From Streptomyces sp. NBC_00289 (lineage in GTDB: Bacteria; Actinomycetota; Actinomycetes; Streptomycetales; Streptomycetaceae): a DNA stretch of 64,000 nt. The stretch spans positions 46,652-110,651 of the forward strand of contig NZ_CP108048.1 of NCBI RefSeq assembly GCF_041435115.1, in the 5' to 3' direction. The notes beneath the pieces are model-generated. The model made no database searches, had not been told where the DNA came from, and saw nothing but the letters and a program-made list of their open reading frames with translations. Positions 6,967 through 64,000 of the stretch are shown one piece after another. Both the position numbers and the translations under genes were made by a program. The stretch's first letter is position 1; each line of letters starts with the position of its first letter.

Positions 6967-7075
6967 TCGGGTCTCCCAGTCGGTTCGTTGTGCCGGGCCG
7001 GACTGTCCGGTCCACCGCCCGGCCCCGCCCACGCCAGTGACAGCACTGGATAGAGCGAGGCGGGAGGGAGGACCG

Positions 7076-7581
7076 TCAGATCAGGGCACTGGCGCCAGCC
7101 AGCAGGAGCAGGGCGAGAGCGGCGAGACTCAGGTCGACCGCGCGCAGCTGGCGGTACTTGCCGACCGCAATCCGGGACAACACCCGGATACGGGCGGCAC
7201 GAGTGTCGCCCTGCATGCAGGCGACGATCTCGTGGTCGTCGTCCAGGCCGGCCCACGGAAACGATGCGCGTCCATCGCCGCCCAGGCGGGGCCGGACCAC
7301 CAGGAGCAGCAGGACAGCGGCCGCGGCCAGAGCCAGGACAGCGACCTCACCTAAGGCCCGGGGAGCGGCGGCAGGTGCGGGTCGGCAACGGACGCGAGGC
7401 CGGCCAGGACGGCGCCGTTGAAAGCGAGCAGCAGGGAGGCCTTGCCGTCGGTGCGGGCGGAAACGCCCGCCACCGTAGCGCAGGCGGCGTCCAGGTTCTG
7501 GTCCGCGTCGACGGTGGCCGTGTCGAGGCCCGCCGTGGCGGTGGGCGCGGATGGGGTGCGGGAAGACCAGGCAAGAGCCAT
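7076..7581 (-). pseudogene. Pycsar-effector-like (DUF5706) membrane protein, frameshifted
   Basis: Two frames together encode one protein. The first (7581-7351) reads MALAWSSRTP, then DADQNLDAACATVAGVSARTDGKASLLLAFNGAVLAGLAS. The second (from ~7360 to 7076) reads RALGEVAVLALAAAAVLLLL, then RPRLGGD, the DDHEIVACMQGDTRAARIRVLSRIAVGKYRQLR segment and a last hydrophobic helix. This combination, with three or more membrane helices and the ARTDxKASLLL motif, is the pattern of proteins annotated as Pycsar system effectors (PycTM). The frame changes in a CCCCGGG run near 7358-7364, consistent with a one-base indel or a sequencing error. GGAG precedes the start. No uridylate or cytidylate cyclase gene is nearby. 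Confidence 0.7.
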
Positions 7582-7611
7582 GGGTGACTACTCCTTCGGC
7601 CAGCTCGTTGA

Positions 7612-8043
7612 TCAGGCGGCGAGGTGATGGGTGGTGTCAGCGGGGAGGGTGTAGGTGCCGGGGGCGGCGGGGGTTCCGTCGAAACACTCCAAGCACATGC
7701 CGAGGGTGCGCAGCGGCAAGCACGCGTCATAGCGTCGGCGGCACCGGGGACAGGTCTGTCTCGCTGCCATCGCGCGATCGAGCGCTGCTTCCTTGGCCAG
7801 CGTCATCGGCCGTACCGGCTTCGCCAGGTCGATGCGGTAGAAGTAGGCCACCCTGCGGCCACCGCGCCAGGTGACCTCCACGACGGGGTCCTGGCCGCCG
7901 GGGCGCAAAGACCCAAAGCACGTAACTGGCGGCGCGTGGCTAGCCCTTTCGGGGCCTGGCCCCAGTCGTAACGGGAACCGGTCGATTCCGTCGTCGTAGA
8001 CGTCGACGTCGACCAGTTCCTCCTTCGGCCGGCTACCCATCAC
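7612..8043 (-). CDS. RRQRL-type zinc-binding protein with a scrambled motif
   Basis: A 143-aa protein starting MGSRPKEELVDVDVYDDGID, with LRPGGQDPVVEVTWRGGRRVAYFYRIDLAKPVRPMT in the middle and CPRCRRRYD and CLPL..GMCLEC cysteine pairs at the C-terminus. This is the layout of Streptomyces RRQRL-motif zinc-binding proteins found in integrative and conjugative elements. The diagnostic motif is missing from the reading frame, but the next frame over the same DNA (~7945-7975) reads LATRRQLRALGL, so two compensating indels seem to flank it. Zinc binding is inferred from the Cys pairs. Confidence 0.65.
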   Translation of the reverse strand: MMGSRPKEELVDVDVYDDGIDRFPLRLGPGPERASHAPPVTCFGSLRPGGQDPVVEVTWRGGRRVAYFYRIDLAKPVRPMTLAKEAALDRAMAARQTCPRCRRRYDACLPLRTLGMCLECFDGTPAAPGTYTLPADTTHHLAA

Positions 8044-8359
8044 GCACTCCAGGTGCCGGGCAGGCGGTCGGGGCGGTGCGGGTAGCGGGGGCCGGCCGAT
8101 CCGGCGGCGCGGGCGGGAAATGAGCACGCGTGATCTCCTCCAACAGGTTGGGCGGGGCAGCACTGCGCCCGCCGGCGTTTTCGTCGGCGGGCGCGGAAGG
8201 CGGGTGGGGCAGGTGGCCGGGCGGCCTGTTCGGTCCTCGCAAAACCGCGCCGATCGGGGCAGGGCGGGAGCCAGGCGGAGCACCTGGAAGGTGAGAGGAC
8301 AGGCTGACGGCCCGCACCCGGGAAGGGGGCGGGCCGTCGCCGCTAGAAGGGAGATTGCG
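8044..8359. terminator. intergenic region with terminator at 8307-8337
   Basis: No gene was recognised here. A perfect 9-bp stem, ACGGCCCGC (8307-8315) and GCGGGCCGT (8329-8337), with a 13-base loop lies just past the stop of the VirB4-like gene and probably ends the transfer operon transcript. Confidence 0.6.
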
Positions 8360-10462: not shown

Positions 10463-11535
10463 CAGAGGATCGCCCCTTTCCTGGTGGAGGCCCCGTGCGG
10501 GGTGGTCATCACGTGAGCGCGGTGCTGCTGGCCAGCGAGCCAGTCGAGACGGATGCGGTGCCGGTCGGCGGCGAGAGAGGCCTGCCAGCGGGCGTCGGTG
10601 ACAGCCTCAGGGCTGTCGCCCCACACCGTCAGGTAGGCGTCGATGTCCACGAGCGTCGCGCCCTGGACCAGGGCGCCATGGGTGGTCCCGCTGGCCAGAT
10701 CGTGGGCGTCCTGCTTGACCTTGTCGGTGGTGAACGCCTCGCTCGCGGCGCGCTGCCACTTTGCGGATCGGCGGGACTGGCCTACCGGCAGCGGCCGGTA
10801 GAGGACGGCGAACGAGCGGTCTGCGTCTGTGCCGAGCAGCATCTTCGGCATGAGGTCGCCGTCGGTTTCCTCGGGCCAGGACGTGATCCGGGCCGTGGCA
10901 GCGAACCGTCCGTCGTCCAACGCGACCCAGCCCGCGCCGCGATCGGCGATAGCAGGGATTGGATCCGGCGTGATGGGCATGAGGGCGCCGAGCGCGGCGA
11001 ACTCACCCGCGAGCGTGTCCAGGACACGGTCCGGCTGACCGGCCAGGCCCTTGGGCACGTGGACGGAGACCGTCTGCGTGTGGGCGGTGTGATCGCCGTT
11101 CGCCGCGTGATGGGTGACGTGGACCTGGACGCCTGCGCTGCGGGCCTGGCCGCCGGCGAACGCCAGCGCCCGGGAGAACTGGTCGTGGAACGCGGTCCGG
11201 CGCTGTTCGTCCTGCATGGTGCCGTGGTCCGGGTACACGGCCCACGTCGCGGTGGCGCCGGGGCGTCCCGTCATCGTGTTGGGCACCGTGCGTTCGCGCA
11301 GGTGCCGATAGCCGACAGCCGCCCATCGGCTGAGCGAACGCGGGCCCGGCGCGATGTTGAGCAGCGCGGCGGCCGCGCCGACCGCGCCGAACGTCCACAC
11401 GGGTGGTGGGGTGAGCATTGCCGACATCAGGACGGCGCTCCCGAGTCCGGCGTTCGCCTTCGTCAGCAGCGTCTCGGAAGGGCTGAGTCCGCGCTGTACA
11501 GCGGGGATCCGGTAGCCGGGAGTCAGGGAGTACAC
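10462..11535 (-). CDS. SCO6880-like conjugation-associated membrane protein
   Basis: A 357-aa protein starting from GTG with GAAGGAGAG upstream. Two hydrophobic stretches near residues 30-65 (AVLMSAMLTPPPVWTFGAVG, then AAALLNIAPG) suggest a membrane hairpin. The rest is a soluble domain with HVTHHAANGDHTAHTQTVSVHVP and MPKMLLGTDADRSFAVLYRP. It sits directly before the VirB4-like gene with a 1-base overlap. The pattern matches proteins named SCO6880 family in Streptomyces transfer clusters, likely playing the part of VirB3 or the VirB4 N-terminal domain. Assignment is by context and recall. Confidence 0.65.
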   Translation of the reverse strand: MYSLTPGYRIPAVQRGLSPSETLLTKANAGLGSAVLMSAMLTPPPVWTFGAVGAAAALLNIAPGPRSLSRWAAVGYRHLRERTVPNTMTGRPGATATWAVYPDHGTMQDEQRRTAFHDQFSRALAFAGGQARSAGVQVHVTHHAANGDHTAHTQTVSVHVPKGLAGQPDRVLDTLAGEFAALGALMPITPDPIPAIADRGAGWVALDDGRFAATARITSWPEETDGDLMPKMLLGTDADRSFAVLYRPLPVGQSRRSAKWQRAASEAFTTDKVKQDAHDLASGTTHGALVQGATLVDIDAYLTVWGDSPEAVTDARWQASLAADRHRIRLDWLAGQQHRAHVMTTPHGASTRKGAIL

Positions 11536-11625
11536 GAGCTCTCCTTCGAGGTTGGACCATCCGGGTTCCGGCCTCGGCGCCCACCCGGATAGGCGGGCGG
11601 GCGTCGGGCCCGGGAGACGGACGGG

Positions 11626-12903
11626 CTACGGGTTGGTTGTCTGGCCCGGACCTGGTGGCGGGTTCGGGGCAGCACGCCGGGGGCCCGGCGTGCGGGGTGG
11701 GGTGGTCCCGGCCGCCGGGGCGGCGGGTCCGGGGGTCTGCGGCTGGACAGCTGTGCGGGCCTGCTGGCGTGCGCGGGTGATCTCCGCTGTGCGGGCTGCG
11801 CGTTCACGGACCTGGGTGATGGTGGATGCCGTGGTCAGCTGGCCCTCGCGCTTGCGCTGGGTGACGCCGTACGCGGCGAACAGCACACCCCGGTCCTGAT
11901 GGACCGCACGGCCCGGCGTGTCCACCGTGCGCAGTCCACGCGGCGCGTTCTCGCGCTCGTAGACGTCCGGGGCGCCGGCCCGCACGACCACCCGGGCGAG
12001 CCGGTTGTCCGTGCGGCGTTCCACCAGCGACCGGGCGCCGCGGGCGACCTTGGGACCGAAGTAGGGCACCCCATGGAAAATCATCCGCAGCATCAACGCG
12101 TCCGCAGCAACCAGCAGGACAGAGTCGACTACGAGCGAGCCCTGGGCCAGCTTCACGAACGGTGCGAGGAGTAGCAGCGCGAACGGGGCGAACATGAGCC
12201 CCAGCAGCCTCCCCGCCCATGCCTTGACCGCGGATGTGTCGCCCCCTCGTGCCAGCGACGCCAGCACGAGGGGAGCCATGCACACGAACACCAGGATGCC
12301 GAGCTGGCGGGTCATGAACACCAGCGCAGCCAACGCCAGGGCGACGACCAGAGCACTGAAGATGATCAGGAGTGCGAGGGGGTTCCCCGCGTCCGCTCCA
12401 TGCTCCATGTCGGTGCTGATCGCGCCGAACAGGGTGGATTCGTCGCTGGCGAACGCGGCCGTGAACGCGGCACTCACGGCCCGGTTCAGCAGCATCACCA
12501 CCCCTGGGATCGACGCCATGCCGGCCACGGCGGCCAGAGACCACCCGGTGGAAGCGCCCATCTGCTTCAGGCGGGGTGCGCCCTGCCAGGCGGTCAGGGC
12601 GCACACAACGACCACGCACACGAAGATCGCAACGGCCAGATGCTGACCGAGCCAGAGGAACTGCGCGTACACGCCGCTGTCGGCCTTCGTCGGCGCCCAC
12701 GCGTCCTTCGGTGCAACCAGGCCGTTGATCTTCTTGATCAAGCTGTCAGCGAGACGTCTGACGTGGTCGGAGGCGCCGTCGGTGAGGCCACTGCTCCCGC
12801 CGGCGCCGGGAGAGCCGCCCCCGCCGCTGTGGTCGCTGACGCAGTATTCGTAGCCGGGCGTGCCCTTGAGGGCGTCGCATGGGTCCTCTTGCAGGTACGC
12901 CAT
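11626..12903 (-). CDS. VirB6/TrbL-like multi-spanning conjugation protein
   Basis: A 425-aa protein with a Gly/Ser-rich N-terminal segment, then about six hydrophobic helices between residues ~85 and ~290 (for example HLAVAIFVCVVVVCAL, LALLIIFSALVVALALAALV and GLMFAPFALLLLAPFV). The C-terminus is a long Arg/Pro-rich cytoplasmic tail ending PPPGPGQTTNP. This topology is that of VirB6/TrbL inner-membrane channel components. It lies between the small two-helix protein and the SCO6880-like gene in the same operon. No catalytic motif is expected. Confidence 0.7.
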   Translation of the reverse strand: MAYLQEDPCDALKGTPGYEYCVSDHSGGGGSPGAGGSSGLTDGASDHVRRLADSLIKKINGLVAPKDAWAPTKADSGVYAQFLWLGQHLAVAIFVCVVVVCALTAWQGAPRLKQMGASTGWSLAAVAGMASIPGVVMLLNRAVSAAFTAAFASDESTLFGAISTDMEHGADAGNPLALLIIFSALVVALALAALVFMTRQLGILVFVCMAPLVLASLARGGDTSAVKAWAGRLLGLMFAPFALLLLAPFVKLAQGSLVVDSVLLVAADALMLRMIFHGVPYFGPKVARGARSLVERRTDNRLARVVVRAGAPDVYERENAPRGLRTVDTPGRAVHQDRGVLFAAYGVTQRKREGQLTTASTITQVRERAARTAEITRARQQARTAVQPQTPGPAAPAAGTTPPRTPGPRRAAPNPPPGPGQTTNP

Positions 12904-12908
12904 GCGCG

Positions 12909-13184
12909 TCAGCCCTTGGCTTCGGTGACGGTGGAGAACAGGGTGTCGCCGTAGAGCGCGAGGATCACGGCGACGAACAGGGTGCCGATCGCCATGGACC
13001 CCTTCCTCAGGGCGCCCTTGGGGTCGTTGGACAGCTGCAGCAGCATCCTGACCGCGATCACGGCGATCACGGCGGCGATGCCCTTGGTGACCAGACCACC
13101 GCCGGTCAGGCCGATCGTGTCGAAGAAGTCCTTGAACCCGCCGCTCATGTCGACGGGCTTGGCGAGGGTCGTGAACTTAGGCAT
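12909..13184 (-). CDS. small two-helix membrane protein (pilin-like)
   Basis: A 91-aa protein with two hydrophobic helices (GIAAVIAVIAVRMLLQL at ~35-51 and SMAIGTLFVAVILALYGDTL at ~63-82) joined by a short charged loop. Size, topology and position before the VirB6-like gene resemble VirB2/TrbC pilins, but no signal peptide cleavage site is evident. It is spaced 5 bases from the next gene, so it is co-transcribed. The pilin role is inference. Confidence 0.6.
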   Translation of the reverse strand: MPKFTTLAKPVDMSGGFKDFFDTIGLTGGGLVTKGIAAVIAVIAVRMLLQLSNDPKGALRKGSMAIGTLFVAVILALYGDTLFSTVTEAKG

Positions 13185-13187
13185 GGG

Positions 13188-14186
13188 TCAGATCTCCCTG
13201 TTGTGGTGGGGTACGGGGCGGGCGACGGCGTAGAGGTCGGTCATCGTGTCCATGGGGTCGATGCGGACGTTCGTGCCGGGCCGGGGGGCGTCGATAATCC
13301 ATCCGCCCCCGATGGCAATTCCGACGTGGTGAATGCTGGTGGGACTGGCGCCGTAAAAGACGAGGTCTCCGGGGCGTACATCTCCCGGCTTGACGGGTTC
13401 GGATGCGGCGTACTGCTGGGCTGCCGTGCGGGGCAGGCTGATGCCTGCTTTCGCGTAGGCGTAGAGCGTGAGTCCGGAGCAGTCGAACCCGGCAATTTTC
13501 TTTCCGGAGTGCCCATTGGGGGAGCAGCAGATTCCCGTGCTGGGCCCGCTTGGATTGCCGCCACCCCATGAATACGGTGTGCCGAGCATTCCGCTGGCCG
13601 CACTGATGGCAGCGGCGGCCTGATTTGTGGTCGCGGTCGCTCCGCCACCTGCGGTTTTACCGGCCAGTGCGGAGATCGACCTGACGTAGTTCTGTGTCTC
13701 TTTGTAGGGAGGCACGCCACCATATTTTTTGACGGCGCCGGATCCAGCGTTGTAGGCGGCGAGCATGTTGCTCTGCGCATTGCCGGGAACGCCTTTGACA
13801 TCTTTGGCGATGTCGCAGAGATATTTCGCGGCGGAGGGGATCGCGTCTCCGGGATCCCACACGTCGCGTTTACCGTCGCTGTTTCCGTCGATGCCGTGGT
13901 TTTCCCACGTGGACGGCATGAACTGCGCGACACCCTCGGCACCCACAGGAGAGCTGGCTTTCGGATTGAAGCCGCTTTCCTGTGTGAGCAGGGCGCCGAG
14001 CAGGTTGGGTGTGACTTCGGGGCAGGTATTTCCTGCGTCCTGCACGAGGGACCGGTATTGGGCGGGGATGGACAGGCTGAGAGCGGCTCCCATGACGGGG
14101 TCGTCGCCGGCGGCCTGGACGAGCGCGGCCGCGACGACGGCCACGATTGCCCCGATGCCGATCGTGGTGGCTACAGAGGCTCGCAA
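13188..14186 (-). CDS. bifunctional lytic transglycosylase / NlpC-P60 peptidase
   Basis: A 332-aa protein with an N-terminal membrane anchor or signal (TTIGIGAIVAVVAAALVQAA). The SLT domain (~45-165) has the catalytic Glu in LLTQESGFNP, plus GVAQFMPSTW and NMLAAYNAGSG motifs. The NlpC/P60 domain (~190-330) has the catalytic Cys in FDCSGLTLYAYA, His in HHVGIAIG, and GDLVFYG. Such proteins open the peptidoglycan to let the transfer channel cross the wall, as VirB1-type enzymes do. It lies downstream of the FtsK-like gene across a repeat-rich intergenic region, and 3 bases before the pilin-like gene. Confidence 0.85.
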   Translation of the reverse strand: MRASVATTIGIGAIVAVVAAALVQAAGDDPVMGAALSLSIPAQYRSLVQDAGNTCPEVTPNLLGALLTQESGFNPKASSPVGAEGVAQFMPSTWENHGIDGNSDGKRDVWDPGDAIPSAAKYLCDIAKDVKGVPGNAQSNMLAAYNAGSGAVKKYGGVPPYKETQNYVRSISALAGKTAGGGATATTNQAAAAISAASGMLGTPYSWGGGNPSGPSTGICCSPNGHSGKKIAGFDCSGLTLYAYAKAGISLPRTAAQQYAASEPVKPGDVRPGDLVFYGASPTSIHHVGIAIGGGWIIDAPRPGTNVRIDPMDTMTDLYAVARPVPHHNREI

Positions 14187-14233
14187 CGCGGTTTCCCTCC
14201 TTCCTGACGTTTTTGATCATTTGCACTGGTCAA

Positions 14234-14354
14234 GACCGTCACGAGGGACCGCCGGGGGACCGTCATGGCACCGGCATGCGCGAGGCGGCATGCCGGTGCC
14301 ATGACGGTGGTTGACGGTGCTGTGACGGTGGTCTGCCGGTGCCTCGTGACGGTC
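14234..14354. repeat. nested inverted repeats with six TGACGGT motifs (candidate clt or operator)
   Basis: Between the translocase and wall-hydrolase genes lie two nested perfect inverted repeats. The outer arms are GACCGTCACGAGG (14234-14246) and CCTCGTGACGGTC (14342-14354). The inner arms are 21 bp (14259-14279 and 14288-14308) with an 8-base loop. The heptamer TGACGGT occurs four times on the plus strand (from 14302, 14312, 14323, 14347) and twice inverted (14235, 14259). The right outer arm overlaps the translocase stop. It may be a transfer site, a regulator site or a transcription barrier. Confidence 0.6.
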
Positions 14355-15993
14355 ACGAGCCGGATTTGGCGGCCTTGATGAGGTCGGCCAGCAGGTAGCC
14401 GCGGCCCTTCCCTGTGCGGCTGGCGGAAACACCGAGCAAATTGCTCAGTTGCTTTCCGCGCTCGGTGGCGTCGTCCTCATGGATGCCGAGTGCGGGCGCC
14501 AGTTCTGCCGTGGTCATGAAATCTGCCTCGTTGCTCCGCAGCAAGGCGATTGCCTTGGTGAGCGGAGATTCCGGGATCGCTTCGATCGCCTGTTTCTGCC
14601 TGTCGATCACTTCGTCGACTACGTCCCAGATGAACTGATCCTCGAAGTTGAATCCGCGGAGCAGCGTGGAGCGTCCCTGGGTGAACAGGACGGCCTGGCC
14701 CTTGATGTCCGGGTCCAGGAGCGCCGGATTGATCGGCGCGACCGTCTCGAAGTAGGTGTCCCCGAGGGCGACTTTGGCCGTTCCGGACGATGCCACGTAC
14801 AGGCACAGCCGGTAGAGGAACTGATCGCGGACCATGACCGGAATGGCGTTCGTAGACGGACGCTGGGTCATGAGAATCGTGGAGATCCCCGATTCCAAGG
14901 ATTTCGCGACCAACGAGCGGGTCTTTTCCGCGATCCGCCGGGCGTCTTCCTTTCCCTCCTTGGATTCATCGCTGGTGAAAAAGTCGGCCGCCTCATCCAC
15001 GATGAAGATGACCGGCTTGAACTTCGGCAACGGCTTCCGGTCCTGGACGGCTTCCTTGATTTCCGCGTAACGCCTGTCCGAGCGGCCGTTCAGCTCATCG
15101 ACCATGTCCTCGTAGACGGCAGGATCGTCGGACGACTCGTAGCGGAAGGCGGCTTTTTCGAACCGGGTCAGTCCGCAGAACTTTCCGTCCAGCAGATACA
15201 GTTCGAAGTCGCCGTAGGCGATCAGCAGGCAGGTGATGAGCCCGTTGATCAGGGTGGTCTTGCCCATCTGGGTCATGCCGGCGACCAGCATGGACGCCTT
15301 GTCGAACGTGGGCACACCGGCCAGCTGGCCGGTGACGTCATGCCCGAGCGGCACCCCCGCGAACGTCACGATCTCCTGCCGGGTCGGGGCAGGGAACGGG
15401 TGGGTGAACGGCGGTTCGTGCAGCTTGAGGAGCTTGACGCGCCGTTCGTTGTCCCGGCTGCGCTCCATTTTCAGATGCAGGCGGGTCACGCCGAACATGC
15501 CGGCCACCGTGCCCAACTTCTTCTCGACGTCCTCATAGGTACGCCCCTTGGGCACGAGGAAGTCGTAGAGGCTGCCGGTCTGGACGTCGGTGACGGTGGC
15601 TTCGTCCTGCCGGATGACCTGGTCCCGGCCGATCGCACCAGCCGTGGTCAGCGCAGCCGTCAACTCCGGATGTACCGGGACGTTTTCCACGGCCGCCTCA
15701 GCCTCACCGGCCGATGCCGTGGACGATGACGATTCCTGCTTCAGAGCTGCCGCCGGCGCCTTCTCTCTCGCCCACATCGCCTTGAAGAGGGCCTTGGTCC
15801 GCCAGGCGGTGTAGCCGAGCGCGACCAGCGCGCCGGCGGTGAGCAGGACGGTGGCCGGCCAGGACAGACCGAGCTTGTCCTTGATGGCGGCGAGGATGCC
15901 GAACGCGATCGCGAGGGTGCCGATCGCGCCTGCCGCCTGCCCGTACCCATCGTCAGCGGCCATGGCGCTGGCCTGCTGTTTCTTCCTTCCCAC
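14353..15993 (-). CDS. FtsK/SpoIIIE-type conjugal DNA translocase (TraB-like)
   Basis: A 546-aa protein. Two membrane helices lie at ~22-65, then a linker, then the FtsK motor with Walker A AGMTQMGKTTL (~238-248), LYLLDGKFCGL, Walker B VIFIVDEAADFF and the ILMTQRPSTNAIP segment. A C-terminal winged-helix region (TTAELAPALGIHEDDATERG, then LSNLLGVSASRTGKGRGYLL) corresponds to the gamma domain that in Streptomyces TraB reads 8-bp transfer sites. TraB proteins move double-stranded plasmid DNA between mycelial cells as hexamers. GACCCGGC repeats lie just upstream and TGACGGT repeats overlap its 3' end, fitting a local transfer origin. Confidence 0.85.
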   Translation of the reverse strand: MGRKKQQASAMAADDGYGQAAGAIGTLAIAFGILAAIKDKLGLSWPATVLLTAGALVALGYTAWRTKALFKAMWAREKAPAAALKQESSSSTASAGEAEAAVENVPVHPELTAALTTAGAIGRDQVIRQDEATVTDVQTGSLYDFLVPKGRTYEDVEKKLGTVAGMFGVTRLHLKMERSRDNERRVKLLKLHEPPFTHPFPAPTRQEIVTFAGVPLGHDVTGQLAGVPTFDKASMLVAGMTQMGKTTLINGLITCLLIAYGDFELYLLDGKFCGLTRFEKAAFRYESSDDPAVYEDMVDELNGRSDRRYAEIKEAVQDRKPLPKFKPVIFIVDEAADFFTSDESKEGKEDARRIAEKTRSLVAKSLESGISTILMTQRPSTNAIPVMVRDQFLYRLCLYVASSGTAKVALGDTYFETVAPINPALLDPDIKGQAVLFTQGRSTLLRGFNFEDQFIWDVVDEVIDRQKQAIEAIPESPLTKAIALLRSNEADFMTTAELAPALGIHEDDATERGKQLSNLLGVSASRTGKGRGYLLADLIKAAKSGS

Positions 15994-16065
15994 ATGCTCT
16001 CCGTGGTGGTCGTGAACACGGGCGCCCCCGCCACGTGTTCGGCTTCTGCGGGTGGTGTGGTGCTC

Positions 16066-16128
16066 GCCGGGTCTGCTTGCCGGGTCTGCGGACGGTTCCG
16101 TCTCGCTCGCCGGGTCACTCGCCGGGTC
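16066..16128. repeat. four GCCGGGTC repeats (GACCCGGC on the minus strand), candidate TraB recognition sites
   Basis: GCCGGGTC occurs at 16066, 16079, 16109 and 16121, all in the same orientation, within 63 bases of the 237-base gap between the DUF2637 and FtsK-like genes. Read on the coding strand this is GACCCGGC. The TraB recognition sequence I recall from pSVH1 is GACCCGGA, also in direct repeats inside clt; seven of eight bases match. Function is inferred from position and similarity. Confidence 0.55.
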
Positions 16129-16175
16129 TGCACCAGGTCGACTGCGGTCGTGCGTGCTTCCGGCAGTCGCAGCAA

Positions 16176-16204
16176 GGGCCAGCCCGCAGGCTGCGGGCTG
16201 GCCC
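16176..16204 (-). terminator. hairpin after the DUF2637 gene
   Basis: Perfect 14-bp arms GGGCCAGCCCGCAG (16176-16189) and CTGCGGGCTGGCCC (16191-16204) around one base. It lies 27 bases past the DUF2637 stop and likely separates it from the FtsK-like gene transcript. Confidence 0.65.
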
Positions 16205-16230
16205 TCACTGGTGGTGCCGGACAGGGATGC

Positions 16231-17487
16231 TCAGGCTGCGTCTTCGGGCTCTTCCTCCTTGGCCTCTTCCGTCTCGGTGTCAGCCGGGACGTCGGCCTGG
16301 GCGTCGCTCTCCTCCTTGGACAGCAGGGCTCCCCAGGCATGGCGAATGCGCTTCTCGCTGCCGACGAAACCGGCCTCGCGGTAGTCACCGACGGCCTGGC
16401 GGTAGGAGGCCGGCGGATCGTCGCGGTAGCGCAGGTGCCGCAGCACGACGTCCATCTGGGCGTCGGTCAGCGTCTCGCCGGGCTCCGGCGTGGGCACGCC
16501 CGTGACGGTTGCGAGCTGCGCGAGCGTGACGGCGTCACGGCCTGCGCCACGGCCACCGTGACCCTCACCGTGACGGTTTCCGCCCGTATCGCCCTGACCT
16601 GCGTGACTGCCCTCCGCATCCGTGCCGGATGCGTCACGGCCGCCCGGCAGAGCGAGGGGGTGAGGGCCGGATCCGTCACGGTCGGCCGTGACGGGCAGGG
16701 CGGGCGCCGTGGGCGTCCACGTACCGAGCTCCGGCAGTTGGATCGCCGCGACCGAGGTCGGCAGGATCTTCTCGGCGGCAGTGGTCGCGGTGGCCTCCGC
16801 CTGCTTGTGCAGCTTCTCGGTCATGGTCTGCTGCGTCTTGAGCTGCGACTTGCGGTAGGCCGTCTCCGCCTTGGCCACTCGCTCTTCCAGCTCGGTCGCG
16901 AGCGCCAGCAGCTCGATCCGGTGCGCGGCTTCCGCCTCCATCTCCTCCAGGCGGTCGGCGACCTCCTGCCGCTTGGACTCGATGTGCTCCCGCGTGCCCG
17001 CGGACGCCTTCCGGCCCAGGGAGGGCAGCGCAATCCACCACGCGAGCTTGGTCGCGACGATGGCGATCGGCGTGAGCACCATGGCCAGGTCGAAACCGCC
17101 GCGCGCGGACATGATCAAGTCGATGGTGGGGATGGCTGCGTTGACGGCCGTGAGCGCGAGTCCGGCGTACTGCACGCGCCGGACACGGCGGGCGTTGTTG
17201 CCGGCCAGGATCTCCGTCGCCTGAAAAACACACCACAGGGCGTCCAGAGCGCCCACGGTCGGCACCGCCCACGCCCCGAACTTCGGCTCGAGGATCTGGT
17301 AGCTGACAGCCATCGACAGGACGGCCACCCCCAGGGTGACGAACCCCAGAATGCTGAGCACCACCCCGCGCGGGGTGAACTCCACACGCAAGCCTTCCTT
17401 TTCCGCCTCTTCCTTCTTTTTCATGGCGTCTCCGTTGTCTGTGCGAGGTGCGTGAGTGTTCGGCTGCCGTGATCCGGGCTCACTCAT
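16231..17487 (-). CDS. DUF2637 (Spd-like) membrane protein
   Basis: A 418-aa protein. Four hydrophobic helices fill residues ~40-155 (GVVLSILGFVTLGVAVLSMA, VPTVGALDALWCVFQATEIL, YAGLALTAVNAAIPTIDLIM, LAMVLTPIAIVATKLAWWIA), the DUF2637 layout. A coiled coil follows (~165-240, rich in Glu/Arg), then a Gly/Asp/His-rich linker whose DNA carries several GTGACGG motifs, and a C-terminal domain with LTDAQMDVVLRHLRY and an acidic tail. DUF2637 proteins accompany TraB in Streptomyces plasmids and are linked to intramycelial spread. The ATG lies inside the end of the 42-aa upstream gene, indicating coupling. Confidence 0.75.
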   Translation of the reverse strand: MSEPGSRQPNTHAPRTDNGDAMKKKEEAEKEGLRVEFTPRGVVLSILGFVTLGVAVLSMAVSYQILEPKFGAWAVPTVGALDALWCVFQATEILAGNNARRVRRVQYAGLALTAVNAAIPTIDLIMSARGGFDLAMVLTPIAIVATKLAWWIALPSLGRKASAGTREHIESKRQEVADRLEEMEAEAAHRIELLALATELEERVAKAETAYRKSQLKTQQTMTEKLHKQAEATATTAAEKILPTSVAAIQLPELGTWTPTAPALPVTADRDGSGPHPLALPGGRDASGTDAEGSHAGQGDTGGNRHGEGHGGRGAGRDAVTLAQLATVTGVPTPEPGETLTDAQMDVVLRHLRYRDDPPASYRQAVGDYREAGFVGSEKRIRHAWGALLSKEESDAQADVPADTETEEAKEEEPEDAA

Positions 17488-23775: not shown

Positions 23776-24054
23776 ATGACCAACCTTTTCGAGGCCGTGG
23801 ACGACCTACTCAGCCGGCCAGCTGACGTCCTGCCTTCTCCTGAGGTCAGGGCCAAGCTTCGCAAAGCTTCCGGCTTGACTCAGGAAGAAGTCGCCGAAGC
23901 TTTCGGCGTACATCGCATGGCTTTCCTGCGCTGGGAGAATGGCCAGTCCATGCCACGCCCCAAAGCCCGTGCCGCCTACCTGCGCCTCCTCAAGGGCTGG
24001 GCCCAGCAACACCCGGAGGCTGCTGAAGGCTTCACGCTAGCGGAGGCCGGCTGA
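23776..24054 (+). CDS. small XRE-family HTH protein
   Basis: A 92-aa protein with GGAAGGAGGAG immediately upstream of the ATG. It starts MTNLFEAVDDLLSRPADVLP and has an XRE helix-turn-helix (LTQEEVAEAFGVHRMAFLRW, then ENGQSMPRPKARAAY). The arrangement parallels the N-terminus of the Tap protein encoded at 25796 (MTNFQAIDALL..., LSRAQLASALGVSPSTIGGW), suggesting a common origin. Its place before rep, tap and tpg makes it a candidate regulator or accessory factor of replication. Confidence 0.8.
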   Translation: MTNLFEAVDDLLSRPADVLPSPEVRAKLRKASGLTQEEVAEAFGVHRMAFLRWENGQSMPRPKARAAYLRLLKGWAQQHPEAAEGFTLAEAG

Positions 24055-24330
24055 CGTGGGCGTGTCTAGCCGCCCCCCGTAAACGCGAAGCGGCCCCCGT
24101 CGCCACAACGGAAGCCGCTTCCCAACGTTTCGACTCTTGACCCTGCAAAGCTCTCGAGTCGTGAGCAGCGAGGTGACCTCGTCTGCCGGGTGATGCCCGT
24201 AGGCCCGTGGGCCTGCGTGGTCACCTATACCCAGAGTATGCGCTCTCGATTGCGCGCCGCCACTACTCCGGGGTCCTGCTAGGTCACATTTGCTGGTCAT
24301 GGCTCCCCTACCTGGGGAGATGACCCACCC
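24055..24330 (+). promoter_or_regulatory. region upstream of rep
   Basis: No gene was seen. A near-perfect palindrome AGGCCCGTGGGCCT (24201-24214) is followed by a locally AT-rich stretch (24225-24260) that could contain the rep promoter. GGGGAG (24314-24319) may be the Shine-Dalgarno sequence for the TTG start of rep. Confidence 0.35.
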
Positions 24331-25795: not shown

Positions 25796-27352
25796 ATGAC
25801 GAATTTCCAGGCCATTGACGCCCTGCTCGCGGCCACGGCGCCCAACCTGGCTCCACTGCCGCCTGCCCAGGAGCGGCGCCGGCTGCGCGAGGAGCTGCAC
25901 CTCTCGCGCGCCCAGCTCGCATCGGCCCTAGGAGTCAGCCCGTCCACGATCGGGGGCTGGGAATCCGGGCGCGACCCGGCAGGCGAGACCCGCGAGAAGT
26001 ACGCGTACTTCCTCGAAGGAGCCCGCACCAAGCTGGACACGGCCGAAACACAGGCGCCGGCCCCCGCCGACAAACCCGCAGACGCACCGGCGCAAACAGA
26101 CCAGGCCGTCGACACAGACGACGTCGGCGAACTGACCGCGCCGCAGCCGTGCGTGCTGTGCGGGCAGCCGGCCCGCCACCAGGTCGAAGGATTCCCCCAG
26201 CACCTGGACCCCGCCGAGTGCGGCACAGACGAGCCACCCCAGACCGCCACGCCCGCACAGCCGGAGACACCCGCCCCGCAGCACAAGACTCGGCAGCCGG
26301 CGGCCGACGCGCGTACCAACAGGGCGGCGCGCGGCGGCGTCAAGGTCGTGGCGGCCGGCCGCCGGGTACAGGCGGCCTCCGACACCGGAGCGGACCCGAT
26401 CGGCTCCGCCGTGGCGGCCGTCCTCGCGGAGCACGCCGGTGACGTGGAGGCGGCGACGGCCGCGCTGGTGAAGCGGGCGATCCCCGACGCGATGGCCCTG
26501 CTCGACCACACGCGTAAGGGCGGCCGCTACGACGTCGTCGCCCATCCGTGGCTACCGGACATCCTGCGCAAGCAGACCGCCCGCGGCGCCGACCAGATCT
26601 GGGAAGCCCGCCCCAAATGGACGCGGGGCGAACTCCCGGCCGGCCGCCACGAGGTGACCGCCCTCGACATCAACGGCGCCTACTTGTCCGCCCTCAAGAC
26701 GCACCTGCCGCTGGGACAGCTCGAACACTCCACCGGCAACGCGCACGACAAGAAGCGCTCCGGCTTGCACCTGATCGCCCCGCCCGTGTGGGAGCACAAC
26801 GCGGTCCTGCCCAACCCGGTCGGCCAGCGCGACGAACCCGGCCCGCTGTGGGTCACCGAACCGACGCTGCGGCTGCTGCTGCGCCTGGCCGGCCCGAAGT
26901 ACGGGCTGTGCGACCCGCCCGAGATCCACGAATCGTGGACGTCCGGCTCCACCGAGGGCCTGCTGGAGAAGTTCCGGACCACGCTCCGCGACGCCCGCGA
27001 CCGCGCGATCAGCCAGGGCGACGAGGTGACGCTGGAGTACGTGAAGGCCATGTACTCCAAGTTCGTGTCCACGCTGGGGGAGTCGAACTACAACAGGGCC
27101 CTGTACCGCACCGACTGGATGCACCTCATCCGCTCCCAGGCGTTCGCGAACCTGTGGACCAAAGCGTTCAAGGCCTACGACGAAGGCCTCATGGTCGTCC
27201 GCGCCATGGGCACCGACGAACTCCACGTCGTGGGTGACTGGCGGGCGGTCTTCCCCGAGGGCCGCGGCGTCACCGAGGTGAAGGTCAAGGACGTCTACAC
27301 CATCGGCAGTGATCCACAGCAGCCCGAGAACACCCCTGACGGCACCTCCTAG
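25796..27352 (+). CDS. tap: telomere-associated protein Tap
   Basis: A 518-aa protein with AGAAGGGA before the ATG. An N-terminal XRE helix-turn-helix (RRLREELHLSRAQLASALGV, SPSTIGGWESGRDPAGETRE) matches the start of Streptomyces Tap. A Pro/Ala-rich linker with CVLCGQPARH follows. The C-terminal half has RHEVTALDINGAYLSALKTH, which resembles the D-x-N-x-x-Y-L core of polymerase/exonuclease folds, and ESNYNRALYRTDWMHLIRSQ. Tap binds telomeric single-stranded 3' ends and recruits the terminal protein Tpg, encoded just downstream. It is shorter than the ~740 aa I recall for the chromosomal protein. Confidence 0.85.
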   Translation: MTNFQAIDALLAATAPNLAPLPPAQERRRLREELHLSRAQLASALGVSPSTIGGWESGRDPAGETREKYAYFLEGARTKLDTAETQAPAPADKPADAPAQTDQAVDTDDVGELTAPQPCVLCGQPARHQVEGFPQHLDPAECGTDEPPQTATPAQPETPAPQHKTRQPAADARTNRAARGGVKVVAAGRRVQAASDTGADPIGSAVAAVLAEHAGDVEAATAALVKRAIPDAMALLDHTRKGGRYDVVAHPWLPDILRKQTARGADQIWEARPKWTRGELPAGRHEVTALDINGAYLSALKTHLPLGQLEHSTGNAHDKKRSGLHLIAPPVWEHNAVLPNPVGQRDEPGPLWVTEPTLRLLLRLAGPKYGLCDPPEIHESWTSGSTEGLLEKFRTTLRDARDRAISQGDEVTLEYVKAMYSKFVSTLGESNYNRALYRTDWMHLIRSQAFANLWTKAFKAYDEGLMVVRAMGTDELHVVGDWRAVFPEGRGVTEVKVKDVYTIGSDPQQPENTPDGTS

Positions 27353-27449: not shown

Positions 27450-28022
27450 ATGCCAGAGCGCAACATCGAGTTCGGGAAGTACGGGGCCCGCGGCATCAAA
27501 GGCCACGAGGCCGTCGCCCGCCAGCTGGACAACCTCGCCGGCTACATCGCCACCCCCATCACCGCCCGCCGCGGCCTCACCGCCCGCCTCAACTACCTGA
27601 CCCGCACCACCCACGCCCGCACCGCCGCCGCGGCCGCCGGCTTCACCCCCAGCAAGGCGCAGCTCAAAGGCTGGCGCGACGGCACCATCACCCCGCGCCG
27701 CGCCACGCTGGAGAAGATCGAGCAGGCCTACCGCACGGTGCGGCGCGAGAACGTCGCCCGCTACCTGCTCGCCCGCCTCAACCGGGAAGGCCGCGGAACC
27801 CGGGTCGAGATTCACCCGCTCAACCAGTCCCAAGTAGACCGGCCCCACCAACGGGCGGTGGAATTCCGGCACATGAACGTCCGCCGCTGGGACCGGATCG
27901 TCGCCGCCTGGGCCACCGGCGACGACCAAGAACTCGATGAAGCGTGGGTCGACCAGGTCATCGACCTCGGCTCGCAATGGGGCCAGTACGAGTACGTCAC
28001 GAACGTCGGCTTCGCCGCGTAA
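27450..28022 (+). CDS. tpg: telomere terminal protein Tpg
   Basis: A 190-aa basic protein, close to the ~185 aa typical of Tpg. It has the helix-turn-helix-like segment TAAAAAGFTPSKAQLKGWRD, preceded by GLTARLNYLTRTTHARTAAA, and ends with WVDQVIDLGSQWGQYEYVTN. Tpg becomes covalently attached to the 5' ends of Streptomyces linear replicons and primes end patching; the linking residue cannot be identified here. It follows tap by 97 bases with GGAG before the ATG. Together with the hairpin-rich right end it shows that the replicon is linear. Confidence 0.85.
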   Translation: MPERNIEFGKYGARGIKGHEAVARQLDNLAGYIATPITARRGLTARLNYLTRTTHARTAAAAAGFTPSKAQLKGWRDGTITPRRATLEKIEQAYRTVRRENVARYLLARLNREGRGTRVEIHPLNQSQVDRPHQRAVEFRHMNVRRWDRIVAAWATGDDQELDEAWVDQVIDLGSQWGQYEYVTNVGFAA

Positions 28023-36370: not shown

Positions 36371-37252
36371 AGCCTTTTTCACTTGTACGGCCTGCGGGTG
36401 AGCGTCGGTGAAGTGTTGACGGTGGCGTGCCGAACGGGGCATCCCGTTGGTTTGGAGAGTCGCCAGACATAACCTTCACCTGCGGAGATGCCCCGTGTTC
36501 TCCTATCCTGCCGGATGCGATGTCGATCCGGAGCTCCTGGAGCTGGTCACGATGGTGATCGCGTCCTGTGAAGCCGGCCGGCGCTGCAGACTGCGTCCGT
36601 ACGACCGGGCCCGGTGCACCCTGGTCTACCTGCGCAAGCACGACACCCTCGAACAGATCGCCGCAGGCTTCGGCATCAGCACGGCCACCGCCTGGCGCTA
36701 CGTGAACCACACGATCGGGCAACTTGCGGAGCACGCGCCGTCGTTGACCGAGGCGCTCACCAGTCATCACACGGACGGCTACGTGCTGCTGGATGGCACC
36801 GTCGCGGAGACCGACCGGGTCCAGGCGCCGGGGCACTTCTCCGGCAAGGTCCGCCGCGAGGGCGTGAATCTGCAGGTCATTGCGGCAGAAGAGGGCAAAC
36901 TGCTGTGGATGTCACCCGCCCTTCCGGGCGGCACCCACGATGTGACGGCCGCCCGCGAGCACGCCATCGTCGACACCTGCGCGCGACTGGACCTCGAGAT
37001 CCTCGCGGACAAAGGGTACGTCGGGACCGGCGGCACTGTGATCACCCCGATCAAACGACGGCCCGGAACCGAACTGCCCGACAAGCACAAGACGTCGAAC
37101 AAGGTCCACGCCGCACTGCGTGCTCCCGTCGAGCGAACCATCTCCCGGATCAAGCAGTGGCGGATCTTCCGGCATGCCCGCGTCAGTCCGAACAGACTCA
37201 CGTCAGTAGCTGCCGCGATCCTCACCCTCATGATCTACACGTGAAAAAGGCT
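36371..37252 (+). mobile_element. 882-bp IS5-family element, copy 2
   Basis: Same element as at 1770, in the opposite orientation, flanked by the 5-bp duplication CCTGG (36366-36370 and 37253-37257). Confidence 0.9.
36495..37244 (+). CDS. IS5-family transposase (DDE_Tnp_4), IS copy 2
   Basis: A 249-aa protein from the GTG at 36495 with GGAG at 36484-36487. Catalytic residues are as in copy 1; it reads GYVGTGG, as does copy 3, so copies 2 and 3 are closer to each other than to copy 1. The gene is intact. Confidence 0.9.
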   Translation: MFSYPAGCDVDPELLELVTMVIASCEAGRRCRLRPYDRARCTLVYLRKHDTLEQIAAGFGISTATAWRYVNHTIGQLAEHAPSLTEALTSHHTDGYVLLDGTVAETDRVQAPGHFSGKVRREGVNLQVIAAEEGKLLWMSPALPGGTHDVTAAREHAIVDTCARLDLEILADKGYVGTGGTVITPIKRRPGTELPDKHKTSNKVHAALRAPVERTISRIKQWRIFRHARVSPNRLTSVAAAILTLMIYT

Positions 37253-52160: not shown

Positions 52161-53042
52161 AGCCTTTTTCACGTGTAGATCATGAGGGTGAGGATCGCGG
52201 CAGCTACTGACGTGAGTCTGTTCGGACTGACGCGGGCATGCCGGAAGATCCGCCACTGCTTGATCCGGGAGATGGTTCGCTCGACGGGAGCACGCAGTGC
52301 GGCGTGGACCTTGTTCGACGTCTTGTGCTTGTCGGGCAGTTCGGTTCCGGGCCGTCGTTTGATCGGGGTGATCACAGTGCCGCCGGTCCCGACGTACCCT
52401 TTGTCCGCGAGGATCTCGAGGTCCAGTCGCGCGCAGGTGTCGACGATGGCGTGCTCGCGGGCGGCCGTCACATCGTGGGTGCCGCCCGGAAGGGCGGGTG
52501 ACATCCACAGCAGTTTGCCCTCTTCTGCCGCAATGACCTGCAGATTCACGCCCTCGCGGCGGACCTTGCCGGAGAAGTGCCCCGGCGCCTGGACCCGGTC
52601 GGTCTCCGCGACGGTGCCATCCAGCAGCACGTAGCCGTCCGTGTGATGACTGGTGAGCGCCTCGGTCAACGACGGCGCGTGCTCCGCAAGTTGCCCGATC
52701 GTGTGGTTCACGTAGCGCCAGGCGGTGGCCGTGCTGATGCCGAAGCCTGCGGCGATCTGTTCGAGGGTGTCGTGCTTGCGCAGGTAGACCAGGGTGCACC
52801 GGGCCCGGTCGTACGGACGCAGTCTGCAGCGCCGGCCGGCTTCACAGGACGCGATCACCATCGTGACCAGCTCCAGGAGCTCCGGATCGACATCGCATCC
52901 GGCAGGATAGGAGAACACGGGGCATCTCCGCAGGTGAAGGTTATGTCTGGCGACTCTCCAAACCAACGGGATGCCCCGTTCGGCACGCCACCGTCAACAC
53001 TTCACCGACGCTCACCCGCAGGCCGTACAAGTGAAAAAGGCT
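52161..53042 (-). mobile_element. 882-bp IS5-family element, copy 3
   Basis: Flanked by the 5-bp duplication CTGGG (52156-52160 and 53043-53047). Same orientation as copy 1, opposite to copy 2. It separates the monooxygenase gene from the flavin reductase region. Confidence 0.9.
52169..52918 (-). CDS. IS5-family transposase (DDE_Tnp_4), IS copy 3
   Basis: A 249-aa protein, GTG start and GGAG as in the other copies; the translation equals copy 2 (GYVGTGG). Intact catalytic residues. Confidence 0.9.
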   Translation of the reverse strand: MFSYPAGCDVDPELLELVTMVIASCEAGRRCRLRPYDRARCTLVYLRKHDTLEQIAAGFGISTATAWRYVNHTIGQLAEHAPSLTEALTSHHTDGYVLLDGTVAETDRVQAPGHFSGKVRREGVNLQVIAAEEGKLLWMSPALPGGTHDVTAAREHAIVDTCARLDLEILADKGYVGTGGTVITPIKRRPGTELPDKHKTSNKVHAALRAPVERTISRIKQWRIFRHARVSPNRLTSVAAAILTLMIYT

Positions 53043-55071: not shown

Positions 55072-57370
<2,299 letters not shown>

Positions 57371-58042
57371 GGTCCGGTACTCGTTGTTGTCGCGCAGGTA
57401 GTTGTTGAGGCGGTCGGCGAGCCAGAGTTCGGTGTTGTAGGCCAGCATCCGCAGCACCATCTGGAGGGTGCGCCGCCCGATCGCGGGCAGGGCACGCTGC
57501 CGGCCGGGGTGGAGCTGGTTGGCGGGGATCTTGACCGGGATCTGCTTCAGCTCGGTCTTGGCGGTGGTCAGGGCCTTTTTGGCCTCGTCCACGTCGGTGC
57601 GGGCGGCGGGGATCTGCTGGTTGATCTTCGCGACGGGGCGGAGCGGGGACTCGATGAGGCGGGCCAGGCGGCGTTCGGCGGCGGCGAGGTCCTTTTCCCG
57701 GTCGCGGACGGTCTGCAGGGCGGCGGCGCGGGCGGGGTTGTCGACCGGTGTGGTGTCATCGGTTTCGGTCATGCGGTAGTCGCACAGCCAGTCGATGCCG
57801 TGCAGGCGGGCCAGGTCCTTGATGGCGTTCTCGATCCGCCAGCGCGAGCGCAGCCAGGCAAGCAGCGACGCGGCGCCCGCGGTCATGTCACTGGTCAGCA
57901 CCTGCAGTCGCAGCACCCCGTCCTCGAACAGGGAAAGCTGCCGGCACACTCCGTAGCCGTCGAACTCCACCAGCTCATCCGCCAGATACACCACCTCGCC
58001 CGATCCGGCTTCGGCTCCGGCTTCGGCTTCGGCTCCGGCTCC
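57371..58042 (-). pseudogene. large-IS transposase remnant (C-terminal half)
   Basis: The minus frame runs from the GGAGCC/GAAGCC repeat (58042) through [20 protein letters not shown] and RWRIENAIKDLARLHGIDWL to NNEYR, where copy B interrupts it. It differs from copies A and B by, for example, QIPVK for QISVK and PAIGRR for PATGRR, and its repeat tract is much shorter. The upstream half is missing; the break lies in the hexanucleotide repeat. Confidence 0.85.
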
Positions 58043-58829
58043 CGGCACCCGCGCGATCCTGGCCGCCGCCTTCGGTCCGAATCCGATGGTGAACTCACCT
58101 ACGCCGGCCGCCTGCTGGGCGCCCTGGACCGCTCCATGCTGCTGCTGGCCGATGCCGCCTTCGACGCCAACGAGTTCCTGCGCGACGTGCAGGCCAGCGG
58201 TGCACAGTTCCTCATTCGTTCCTCCGCGTGCGGGTCATCGAAGCCCAGATCACCGTGCGCCTGGCCGACGGAACGGTCCGCCACGAGCAGTGGCGCCTGC
58301 TCACAAGCCTGCTCGACCCCATCCGCTACCCGGCTGACGAGTTGGTACGGCTCTACCATGATCGGGGGCAGGCGGAGACGACGTATTTCTCGATCAAGGC
58401 CACGATGCTGGACGGCCGTGTCCTGCGCTCCCGCAGCCTGCCCGGCCTCGACCAGGAGGTCTACGCCCTGCTCACCACCTACCAGGCACTCATCCGCACC
58501 GCTTCGGACGCGGCCGGCACCCGCCGGGTCTGGACATGGACCGGATCAGCTTCACCGTCCTGCTCCAGAGCGCCGCCGACCAGGTGATCACCGCGGGCAA
58601 CATCCTCACCCACGGTCCGGCCGACCTGGTCGGCGCGATCGGACGGGCCGTCCTGGACGCACTCCTGCCCGCCTGGCGCCGTCCCCGAATCAAGGCCCGC
58701 ACCCGCAAGAGCCCCACCAGCAAGTACGGCCCGAACGCCGGACAACACCCCACGACCAGCCAGAACTACACCTTCCACGCCGACGTCATGTTCCTCGAAC
58801 ACGGACTTGCATCCCGCCCGCGACGATAA
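58043..58829 (+). pseudogene. IS4-family transposase remnant
   Basis: Successive frames give TRAILAAAFGPNP, then ELTYAGRLLGALDRSMLLLA, DAAFDANEFLRDVQASGAQF, then QITVRLADGTVRHEQWRLLT, YHDRGQAETTYFSIKATMLD (Glu region) and MDRISFTVLLQSAADQVITA to HGLASRPRR. This is the order of an IS4-type transposase from its central Asp onward. The N-terminus is lost at the large-IS junction and at least two frameshifts are present. Confidence 0.8.
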
Positions 58830-63169: not shown

Positions 63170-63592
63170 TCACTGATCGCAAGACCGCTTTCCGCGTCGG
63201 GCCTGCAACACGCCCTGCCCGACCGAGGCATACGTCGCAAACACCGTCACCAGATCCGGCCCCGCCGTCCACGCCACCAACTCGCCGGGATCCGTCGTAC
63301 ACGGCACACCCTGACTCTCCTCAGCACGCAGAGAACACACCCCAACCATCGCCCCACGCCGACCACCACCACGCCACGCGCCGGCCATCTGCACCAGCAG
63401 ATCCAACGTCGGCACCAAAACCAGCACCCGGCGCGCCGAAAGACGGTTCGCAGACTCCACACCGATCAGCGTCTTACCGGACCCAGTCGCAGCAATTACC
63501 TGCGCCCGCAACCCCTCCGGCGGCTCAGAGAGAACCCTCAGAACCGAATCAACGGCCTCAACCTGATGCGGACGCAACGTCACAGGTGACAT
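63170..63592 (-). pseudogene. truncated telomere-linked helicase (N-terminal part)
   Basis: A 140-aa product with GGAG before the ATG: MSPVTLRPHQVEAVDSVLRV (Q-like motif), then AQVIAATGSGKTLIGVESAN (Walker A of superfamily-2 helicases), RRVLVLVPTLDLLVQMAGAW (motif Ia) and LVTVFATYASVGQGVLQARR. It stops before the DEAH box. Streptomyces linear replicons commonly carry such a helicase gene (ttrA-type) next to the telomere. Here only the N-terminal third is left, so it is probably non-functional. Confidence 0.65.
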
Positions 63593-63856
63593 TCTTTACT
63601 CCTTCTCTCGCTTCTTTCCACGAGGCGAATCGAGGGCTGCTCAGTTCAAGGAACTCAGATACTGGAATCCATCCAGTCCCTCACCGCTCCGACCCAAAAT
63701 TACCTGGAGAGGTACCTACCTAACATCCCAGACTCTATCTACCCAGCAGAAGTGACGCACGCCGTTTGTTCTGGAAGTGTGGAGATGTGATGAGTCGACC
63801 TAGAGTCAGCGGTCAGAGATACGAGCGAGCCCCTCTCCTTACTGCCGCCTTTTTGG
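63593..63856. other. subtelomeric spacer
   Basis: No gene was seen between the helicase start and the terminal hairpins. It is somewhat AT-richer than the hairpin block. Confidence 0.5.
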
Positions 63857-64000
63857 GCCGCCCGGAGGGTGCGTCAGGTCCCGTACTGGACTGCGGAGCA
63901 GGCCGGTACGGGACTGATCCGGCGTCAGCCGGATCGCCGTATCGCGGAGCGATACGGCCAGGCAGAACGGAGTTCCGCCCTCCCGCGCGGAGCGCGGGAA
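63857..64000. repeat. linear-replicon telomere with GGA-loop hairpins
   Basis: Six successive hairpins. CCC-GGA-GGG (63861-63869). GTCCCGTAC...GTACGGGAC (63878-63914) with inner TGC-GGA-GCA. GATCCGGC-GTCA-GCCGGATC (63916-63935). GCCGTATCGC-GGA-GCGATACGGC (63936-63958). GAAC-GGA-GTTC with GGC/GCC flanks (63961-63979). TCCCGCGC-GGA-GCGCGGGA (63981-63999). Three-base purine-rich loops closed by C-G pairs are the hallmark of Streptomyces telomere 3' overhangs. The actual bases differ from the archetypal CCCGCGGAGCGGG start I recall. Confidence 0.85.

Follow-up and report, generated by a model that had tools for sequence, protein, structure and literature searches.

The locus analysed here raises the question of how a linear Streptomyces plasmid ends, to which class its telomere belongs and which proteins complete it. 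The window, i.e., the whole stretch of DNA studied, comprises 64,000 nucleotides of Streptomyces sp. NBC_00289 and corresponds to positions 46652-110651 of the contig called C3 below (NZ_CP108048.1), one of the six contigs of a genome of 11.0 Mb. As C3 is 110,651 bp long, base 64000 of the window is the final base of the contig. A preliminary description of this DNA had seen six tandem hairpins, five of them with a GGA loop, in its last ~145 bases and had taken them for the telomere of a linear replicon. Folding of positions 63857..64000 (+ strand) returns the same arrangement, with hairpins at 63857-63874 (GGA), 63877-63915 (GGA), 63916-63935 (GTCA loop), 63936-63958, 63961-63979 and 63981-63999 (all GGA), giving the loop order GGA, GGA, GTCA, GGA, GGA, GGA under RNA parameters. 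Under DNA parameters, which draw the innermost hairpin with a 4-nt loop, unlike the RNA-parameter fold, the minimum free energy of the block is -57.2 kcal/mol (z = -7.7), and none of 200 dinucleotide shuffles is as stable; five or more GNA triloops appear in none of 500 such shuffles. The GGA loops sit on the + strand, the one whose 3' terminus lies at the right end of C3. The left end of C3 folds even more strongly (-77 kcal/mol over 180 nt, z = -9.0).

A search of all contigs with the last 401 bp of the window (E<=0.001) found matches at the two ends of C3 and the two ends of a second contig, C2, the three copies other than the query's own being 95% identical to it, and none at internal sites of the genome, where the preliminary description had held that the presence of the hairpin block would speak against a telomere. 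The right copy of the terminal inverted repeat of C3 extends over 63203..64000 (798 bp) and is 94.6% identical to C3:35-852, the C2 ends being 94.5% identical to the same stretch. Next to the hairpins, on the minus strand at 63170..63592, a 140-aa ORF with ResIII and DEAD matches is the truncated remnant of a terminal DEAD/DEAH-type helicase gene; it is 94.9% identical to the intact protein over residues 1-136 only, and the intact 838-aa ORF is located at C3:445-2961. The right end of C3 has the features by which Streptomyces telomeres are recognized, namely a terminal position (at the contig level), an inverted copy at the opposite end and tandem GNA-loop palindromes on the 3' strand, and the window end is the right-hand telomere of this linear Streptomyces plasmid of 110.7 kb.

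The left end of C3 and both ends of C2 run 33-34 nt further outward, with (C)CCGCAGACGCGACGCGGTGTCGCTACGCGACAC, so the molecule itself probably does not stop at base 64000. Complete relatives have exactly 23 bases, GCGCGCGGTCTGCTCCGCAGACR or a variant of it, ahead of the core motif; the left end of C3 has 10. Taken together, these comparisons suggest that the right end of C3 is about 47 nt short in the assembly, 34 of them shown by the other ends and ~13 deduced from the complete relatives, and that the real terminus would lie ~47 nt past base 64000, in GCGCGCGGTCTGCTCCGCAGAC-like sequence. The outer palindrome I, present in complete relatives, is cut at the left end of C3 and missing at the window end. 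What the preliminary description had read inwards from base 64000 as the terminal sequence is actually an inner hairpin.

The telomere had further been described as non-archetypal and perhaps of a rarer class. It shares GNA-looped hairpins on the 3' strand with the archetypal telomere of S. coelicolor, of S. lividans and of the left end of contig C4, but the archetypal palindrome II, TACCACATCGCTGCGCGATGTG, allowing up to two mismatches, is absent from C3 and C2 and has its sole copy in the strain at the left end of C4. The class is indeed a rarer, non-archetypal one; it is not new, however, since comparison with the known telomere classes leads to the Sg2247 type, already described in PMC8743542, where the available text names S. 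griseus 2247, S. rimosus ATCC 10970, S. albidoflavus J1074, pSCAT and pSHJG1 among the members. The left end of C3, used as query against 72,556 plasmid records, matched 19 of them, within 15 nt of the record end in 17; the two records with a non-terminal match, NBC_00028 and CLI2509, were excluded from the counts. The 17 terminal matches include pSCAT, pSHJG1 and pRLB1-9.2, the last reported to have GGA loops (PMC7205883, in the part available), and the best-covered are those of NBC_01558, RLB1-9, S. canus NBC_00022 and NBC_01462. Identity amounts to 72.0% over query positions 2-142 for pSHJG1 and to 81.8% over 2-52 for pSCAT, and C3 shares with both the outer sequence CCGCAGAC.CGACGCG..G.CGCTACGCG, which places its telomere in the Sg2247 type; the idea of a new telomere class was dropped after these two matches. 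As elsewhere in the class, the tandem hairpins are replicon-terminal, have mostly GGA or GTA loops and sit on the 3' strand. By contrast, the inner hairpins of C3 are of other sequence, its assembled right end is truncated, and the telomere is here tied to a candidate protein pair that is absent from the available text of PMC8743542. Another named member, pSGZL, starts with GCGCGCG, and its layout resembles that of C3 by eye only. In named genome contigs, the motif CGACGCGNNGNCGCTACGCG was found in at least 120 stretches; among the matches listed, 32 of the 38 from Streptomyces are no more than 38 nt away from a contig end (10 of these after exactly 23 nt), and a single one of the 82 from elsewhere is close to such an end (40 nt). 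A scan of viral_contigs with the motif gave eight stretches.

Which proteins serve such an end is a separate matter, and one on which the open PMC literature yielded no protein named for Sg2247-type telomeres; the accessible part of PMC8743542 calls these proteins elusive, and that of PMC7205883 suggests GtpA-GtpB or a type II Tap-alt/Tpg for GGA-loop ends. The preliminary description had stated that tap and tpg are present. The canonical pair is not on C3, where the Tpg model NF047541 (cut-off 90 bits) has no match at any position, and the canonical pairs of the strain are found on C2 (one) and C4 (two). What C3 does carry is a broken tap remnant, an N-terminal part with two stops at 23785..24126 (+; C3:70436-70777; 83.5 bits), and, downstream on the same strand, a divergent Tap relative beside a second candidate gene. 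The first, A2 (25796..27352, +), encodes a candidate telomere-associated protein or polymerase of 518 aa with an N-terminal XRE-type HTH and a C-terminal domain like that of Tap and of proteins of pRL2 and contig C5; it scores 80.5 bits against the Tap model NF047542, over its N-terminal part only and below the curated cut-off of 600. The second, A1 (27450..28022, +), encodes a candidate terminal protein of 190 aa, possibly a very divergent Tpg relative, which matches no Pfam or NCBIfam model. The gene order, with the Tap-like gene before the terminal protein gene, and the size of the small protein (~185-190 aa) are those of archetypal Tap/Tpg, but A2 is 518 aa long against 695 in the Tap model, and the Tpg model misses A1. 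In the genome, the A1 family has one match, on C3, among the best 8 of 91 first-look candidates scored. Protein searches at E<=1e-3 gave 904 homologues of A1 and, with the 8,000 best candidates scored, at least 1,753 of A2; the best 120 of each were inspected, and where named they are mostly called 'transcriptional regulator' or 'helix-turn-helix domain-containing protein'. A2 has no match in the phage collection. The AlphaFold2 model of A1 reaches a pLDDT of 75.9 and has no PDB match, and that of A2 reaches 48.5, its alignment of near-identical sequences being probably too shallow.

The main evidence for a role of these genes at the telomere comes from their distribution in 392 Streptomyces genomes, including this strain, in which the A1 and Tpg searches scored, for each genome, the 8 top first-look candidates and for which the sets used in the co-occurrence tests were compiled by hand from the scans for the motif, A1, Tpg and the archetypal pattern. 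The outer motif is present in 35 of them: in 26 it lies 84 nt or less from a contig end, in 7 it is non-terminal and in 2 (G300, G377) its position is unknown. All 26 genomes with a terminal motif have a strong A1 match (E<1e-60), compared with 64 of the 366 others (Fisher 1e-18, kinship ignored); these 64 speak against our proposal, though the strictness of the motif and the loss of ends from drafts may be the reason for them. At E<=1e-3, the corresponding counts are 26/26 and 140/366, or, if all 35 motif genomes are kept, 33/35 and 133/357. The two motif genomes that are devoid of A1, G174 and G252, had all their candidates scored, and in both the motif is non-terminal. Among the 47 genomes with the archetypal palindrome II at any position, 9 have an A1 match and one a strong match, the latter being the present strain, which has both. 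Tpg (E<=1e-3, best 8 candidates per genome) behaves differently: it is found in 47/47 archetypal genomes and in 298 of the 366 without a terminal motif vs 10 of the 26 with one, the remaining 16 giving no match among the 8 candidates scored in each. A1 tracks the Sg2247-type telomere, and the association is reversed for the archetypal telomere.

The plasmids point the same way. A full A1 is located on the same record in 14 of the 17 plasmids with a terminal telomere match, and Tpg exceeds its cut-off on 3 of the 17, including pSHJG1 and pSHJGH1; at E<=1e-3, some Tpg match exists on 9, and two of these weak matches overlap the A1 gene. Several observations made on these records and on the strain itself are counted against our proposal: besides the Tpg matches on 9 records, A1 is absent from the records of pSHJG1 and pSHJGH1, which are hybrids with one archetypal end, NBC_01592 CP109325 has A1 fragments only, and C2 (144,807 bp), with the same telomere as C3, carries canonical tap/tpg and gives no A1 match. 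The A1 of pSGZL is more distant (E 4e-52). On pRLB1-9.2, A1 (NZ_CP041652.2 78131-78700) is 91.6% identical to that of C3 and directly preceded by A2; according to the available text of PMC7205883, a linear plasmid of the same strain, there printed as pRLB1-9.1, has no Tap/Tpg homologue. In three single-contig genomes (G015, G065, G207), A1 lies within ~1.2 kb of the contig end.

The link between A2 and A1 is looser. With flanks of 1.5 kb, or up to the contig end, taken into account, A2 directly precedes A1 on the same strand at 23 of 44 A1 loci (15/30 from the genus search and 8/14 from plasmids), with a gap of about 21-163 nt, and it is absent from this position at the other 21, which counts against A2 as the partner. 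Both situations occur among the single-contig genomes in which each end bears the motif and Tpg gave no match. In G051, an A2-like gene and A1 occupy 7554091-7556873, at a distance of 17 kb from the right end; in G208, A1 stands on its own 9 kb from the left end, and the first 100 kb, the part searched, contain no A2, which likewise counts against A2.

Considering all these data, we regard the divergent A2/A1 pair as most likely the cognate machinery of the C3 telomere, and A1, together with A2, as a strong candidate for the completion of Sg2247-type ends in general. We think it likely that the telomere of C3, an Sg2247-type end lacking ~47 nt in the assembly, most likely works in the manner of Tap/Tpg ends, with A1 as the candidate terminal protein and A2 as its partner, and that the pair serves C3 and, in trans, C2. 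Replication from the inside would leave the + strand as a 3' overhang, which would fold into the GNA-looped hairpins; the Tap-like A2 would bind this fold, and the small A1 would act as the primer for gap filling and stay covalently attached to the 5' end. These roles are modelled on Tap/Tpg and Tac/Tpc, where, according to the part of PMC4513846 available, the associated protein is by itself sufficient to nucleotidylate the terminal protein and to synthesize a short primer. C2, which ends in a C3-type telomere and gives no A1 match, would be served in trans by the A2 and A1 of C3. New in this is the strong link of a known telomere class to a divergent candidate terminal protein with a Tap-like partner on the same plasmid. 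The specificity of Tap/Tpg, to which the preliminary description had drawn attention, is a question worth asking; C3 now provides a candidate pair to set against archetypal Tap/Tpg and makes Sg2247-type completion testable with minimal linear plasmids. As two or more telomere classes, each with its own set of proteins, coexist in the strain, cross-specificity is testable in one cell.

Other explanations have to be weighed against this one. One could take the right end of C3 for a pseudo-telomere, or for a break left by the assembly within a longer molecule, because it is without the outer 34 nt and adjoins the truncated helicase gene; the right end of C4, where no telomere is visible by eye, indicates that the assembly does have incomplete ends. 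Such an origin is scarcely credible, however, for a block which is identical to the C3 left end at 152 of 156 positions and whose inverted copies, also at both ends of C2, are nowhere internal. Another explanation is that the canonical Tap and Tpg of C2, or those of C4, patch the ends of C3 and C2 in trans and that A2 and A1 serve something else. The tap and tpg of C2 are well over their cut-offs, its ends are copies of the left end of C3, and pSHJG1 is a member of the class with Tpg and no A1. This possibility appears improbable in view of the 16 of 26 terminal-motif genomes without a Tpg match among the best 8 candidates, two of them single-contig with the motif at both ends, of the predominance of full A1 over Tpg on the terminal-match plasmids, and of the statement in the accessible part of PMC8743542 that neither tap nor tpg was found in S. 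albidoflavus J1074 or S. rimosus ATCC 10970.

The database names of the homologues would agree with A2 and A1 being ordinary HTH regulators that merely travel on linear plasmids, but the resemblance of the A2 C-terminal domain to that of Tap and the fact that A1 is associated with one telomere type in particular and shows the opposite trend with the archetypal type make this very improbable. A milder departure from our proposal keeps A1 as the terminal protein and gives it, in many cases, another partner, either a Tap-like protein encoded on the chromosome or one member of a different pair, A2 being one of several. It would account for the 21 loci where A2 does not directly precede A1 and for the lone A1 near the end of G208, and lone tpg genes are known on archetypal linear plasmids (PMC3572947, in the part available); still, the closeness of A2 and A1 where they are paired and the combination of a Tap-like N-terminus with the apparently shared C-terminal domain in A2 render it rather unlikely.

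Profile comparison with hhalign relates A2 to the C-terminal part of a 1,226-aa ORF of C5 (E 1.8e-6, prob 90%) and, modestly, to Tap (E 7e-4, prob 26%). In hmmsearch over ten sequences, the A2 profile scores 32.8 bits with Tap of C2 (HTH included), 27.8 with the pRL2 protein, 21.3 with Tap L265, 15.0 with the C5 protein and 4.0 with Tap L028, and the Tap profile scores 37.3 bits with C5, 35.8 with pRL2 and 15.8 with A2, remoter A2 members falling below threshold; the Tap model also picks up the C5 protein in a scan of the genome (E 3.6e-9). In the alignment, the domain that A2, Tap and the pRL2 and C5 proteins appear to share contains D-x-N, E-x-W, a K...G stretch, RPD[WI] and a final D. For the small proteins, direct comparison of the A1 and Tpg profiles is weak (prob 3%), and the link between them runs only through the HTH protein of pRL2, which matches both profiles (32.8 bits Tpg, 18.9 bits A1). 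The sequence links of A1 and A2 to Tpg and Tap are weak to moderate. At position 127 of A1, Ser is present in 21 of the 22 members aligned, the other having Tyr; this position is some nine alignment columns away from T114 of Tpg, to which priming has been mapped and where Ser is tolerated (PMC3572947, available part); Ser127 would be our guess for the priming residue of A1. By a similar guess, D291, K417 and D474 of A2, invariant in 24/24 sequences, are candidate catalytic residues.

Whether A2 resembles a family B polymerase was examined with phi29 and 120 homologues. The best alignment has motifs A and B, together with the stretch that follows B, in register, but its score (E 0.06) merely equals that of the top one among 40 column-shuffled profiles, and we treat it as a lead only. 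Searches of Pfam and PDB gave no polymerase match for A2. It may nevertheless be proposed, tentatively and as less likely than not, that Tap, A2 and the pRL2 and C5 proteins belong to a single superfamily of protein-primed polymerases whose family-B-like core is reduced (motif A D-x-N, B K...G, C D), and that Tpg, A1 and the pRL2 HTH protein form one primer superfamily. If true, Streptomyces would possess a single end-patching machinery that diverged beyond recognition along with the telomere classes, as opposed to independently arisen systems. Contrary to this, Tap and Tac are described, in the part of PMC4513846 available, as having neither a DNA polymerase motif nor homology to other proteins. 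The plasmid pRL2 (NC_007927) offers a parallel in its DUF927 protein with a Tap-like C-terminus and its adjoining HTH protein, but there the Tap-like part is fused to a helicase-like part, and pRL2 has a telomere class of its own according to the available text of PMC8743542. The GtpB-GtpA system of S. griseus is likewise an atypical two-gene system tied to GGA-loop telomeres, in which GtpA is far from Tpg (18% identity; PMC7205883, part available); A1 and A2 may be distant members of the GtpA/GtpB group.

The other replicons of the strain show a variety of ends. Both ends of C2 and the left end of C3 have 3.2-3.3 kb in common at 99.0-99.7% identity, including the terminal helicase gene, and C2, with its canonical tap/tpg, and C3 look as though they had recently exchanged ends. 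C4, with its archetypal telomere at the left contig end and none recognizable by eye at the right, has two further tpg genes over the cut-off besides its two tap/tpg pairs. The smaller C5 (17,963 bp), a relative of the linear plasmid pRL2, has inverted repeats at its ends; its 1,226-aa ORF (6461-10141, minus) combines a DUF927 part with the Tap-like C-terminus and adjoins a 192-aa ORF (5876-6454, minus) without a clear match to A1 or Tpg. The ends of the chromosome, C1, have a common inverted repeat and GGA-loop hairpins of different sequence; their telomere was considered as a relative of that of C3 and, by eye, is a different GGA-loop type. Among the best candidates scored, C1 has neither A1 nor a full Tpg, with weak partial matches at C1:741897-742170, and broken Tap-like frames lie ~140 kb from both of its ends. 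Within the window, three ORFs of 265 aa, at 1778-2575, 36447-37244 and 52169-52966, have an identical start (LVWRVARHNLHLRRCPVF...) and represent a repeated element, and the ORFs at 55180-57345 and 57326-58048 match Transposase_29. A block of minus-strand ORFs at 8360-17487, one of them with weak matches to VirB4-like transfer ATPases, is possibly a transfer region.
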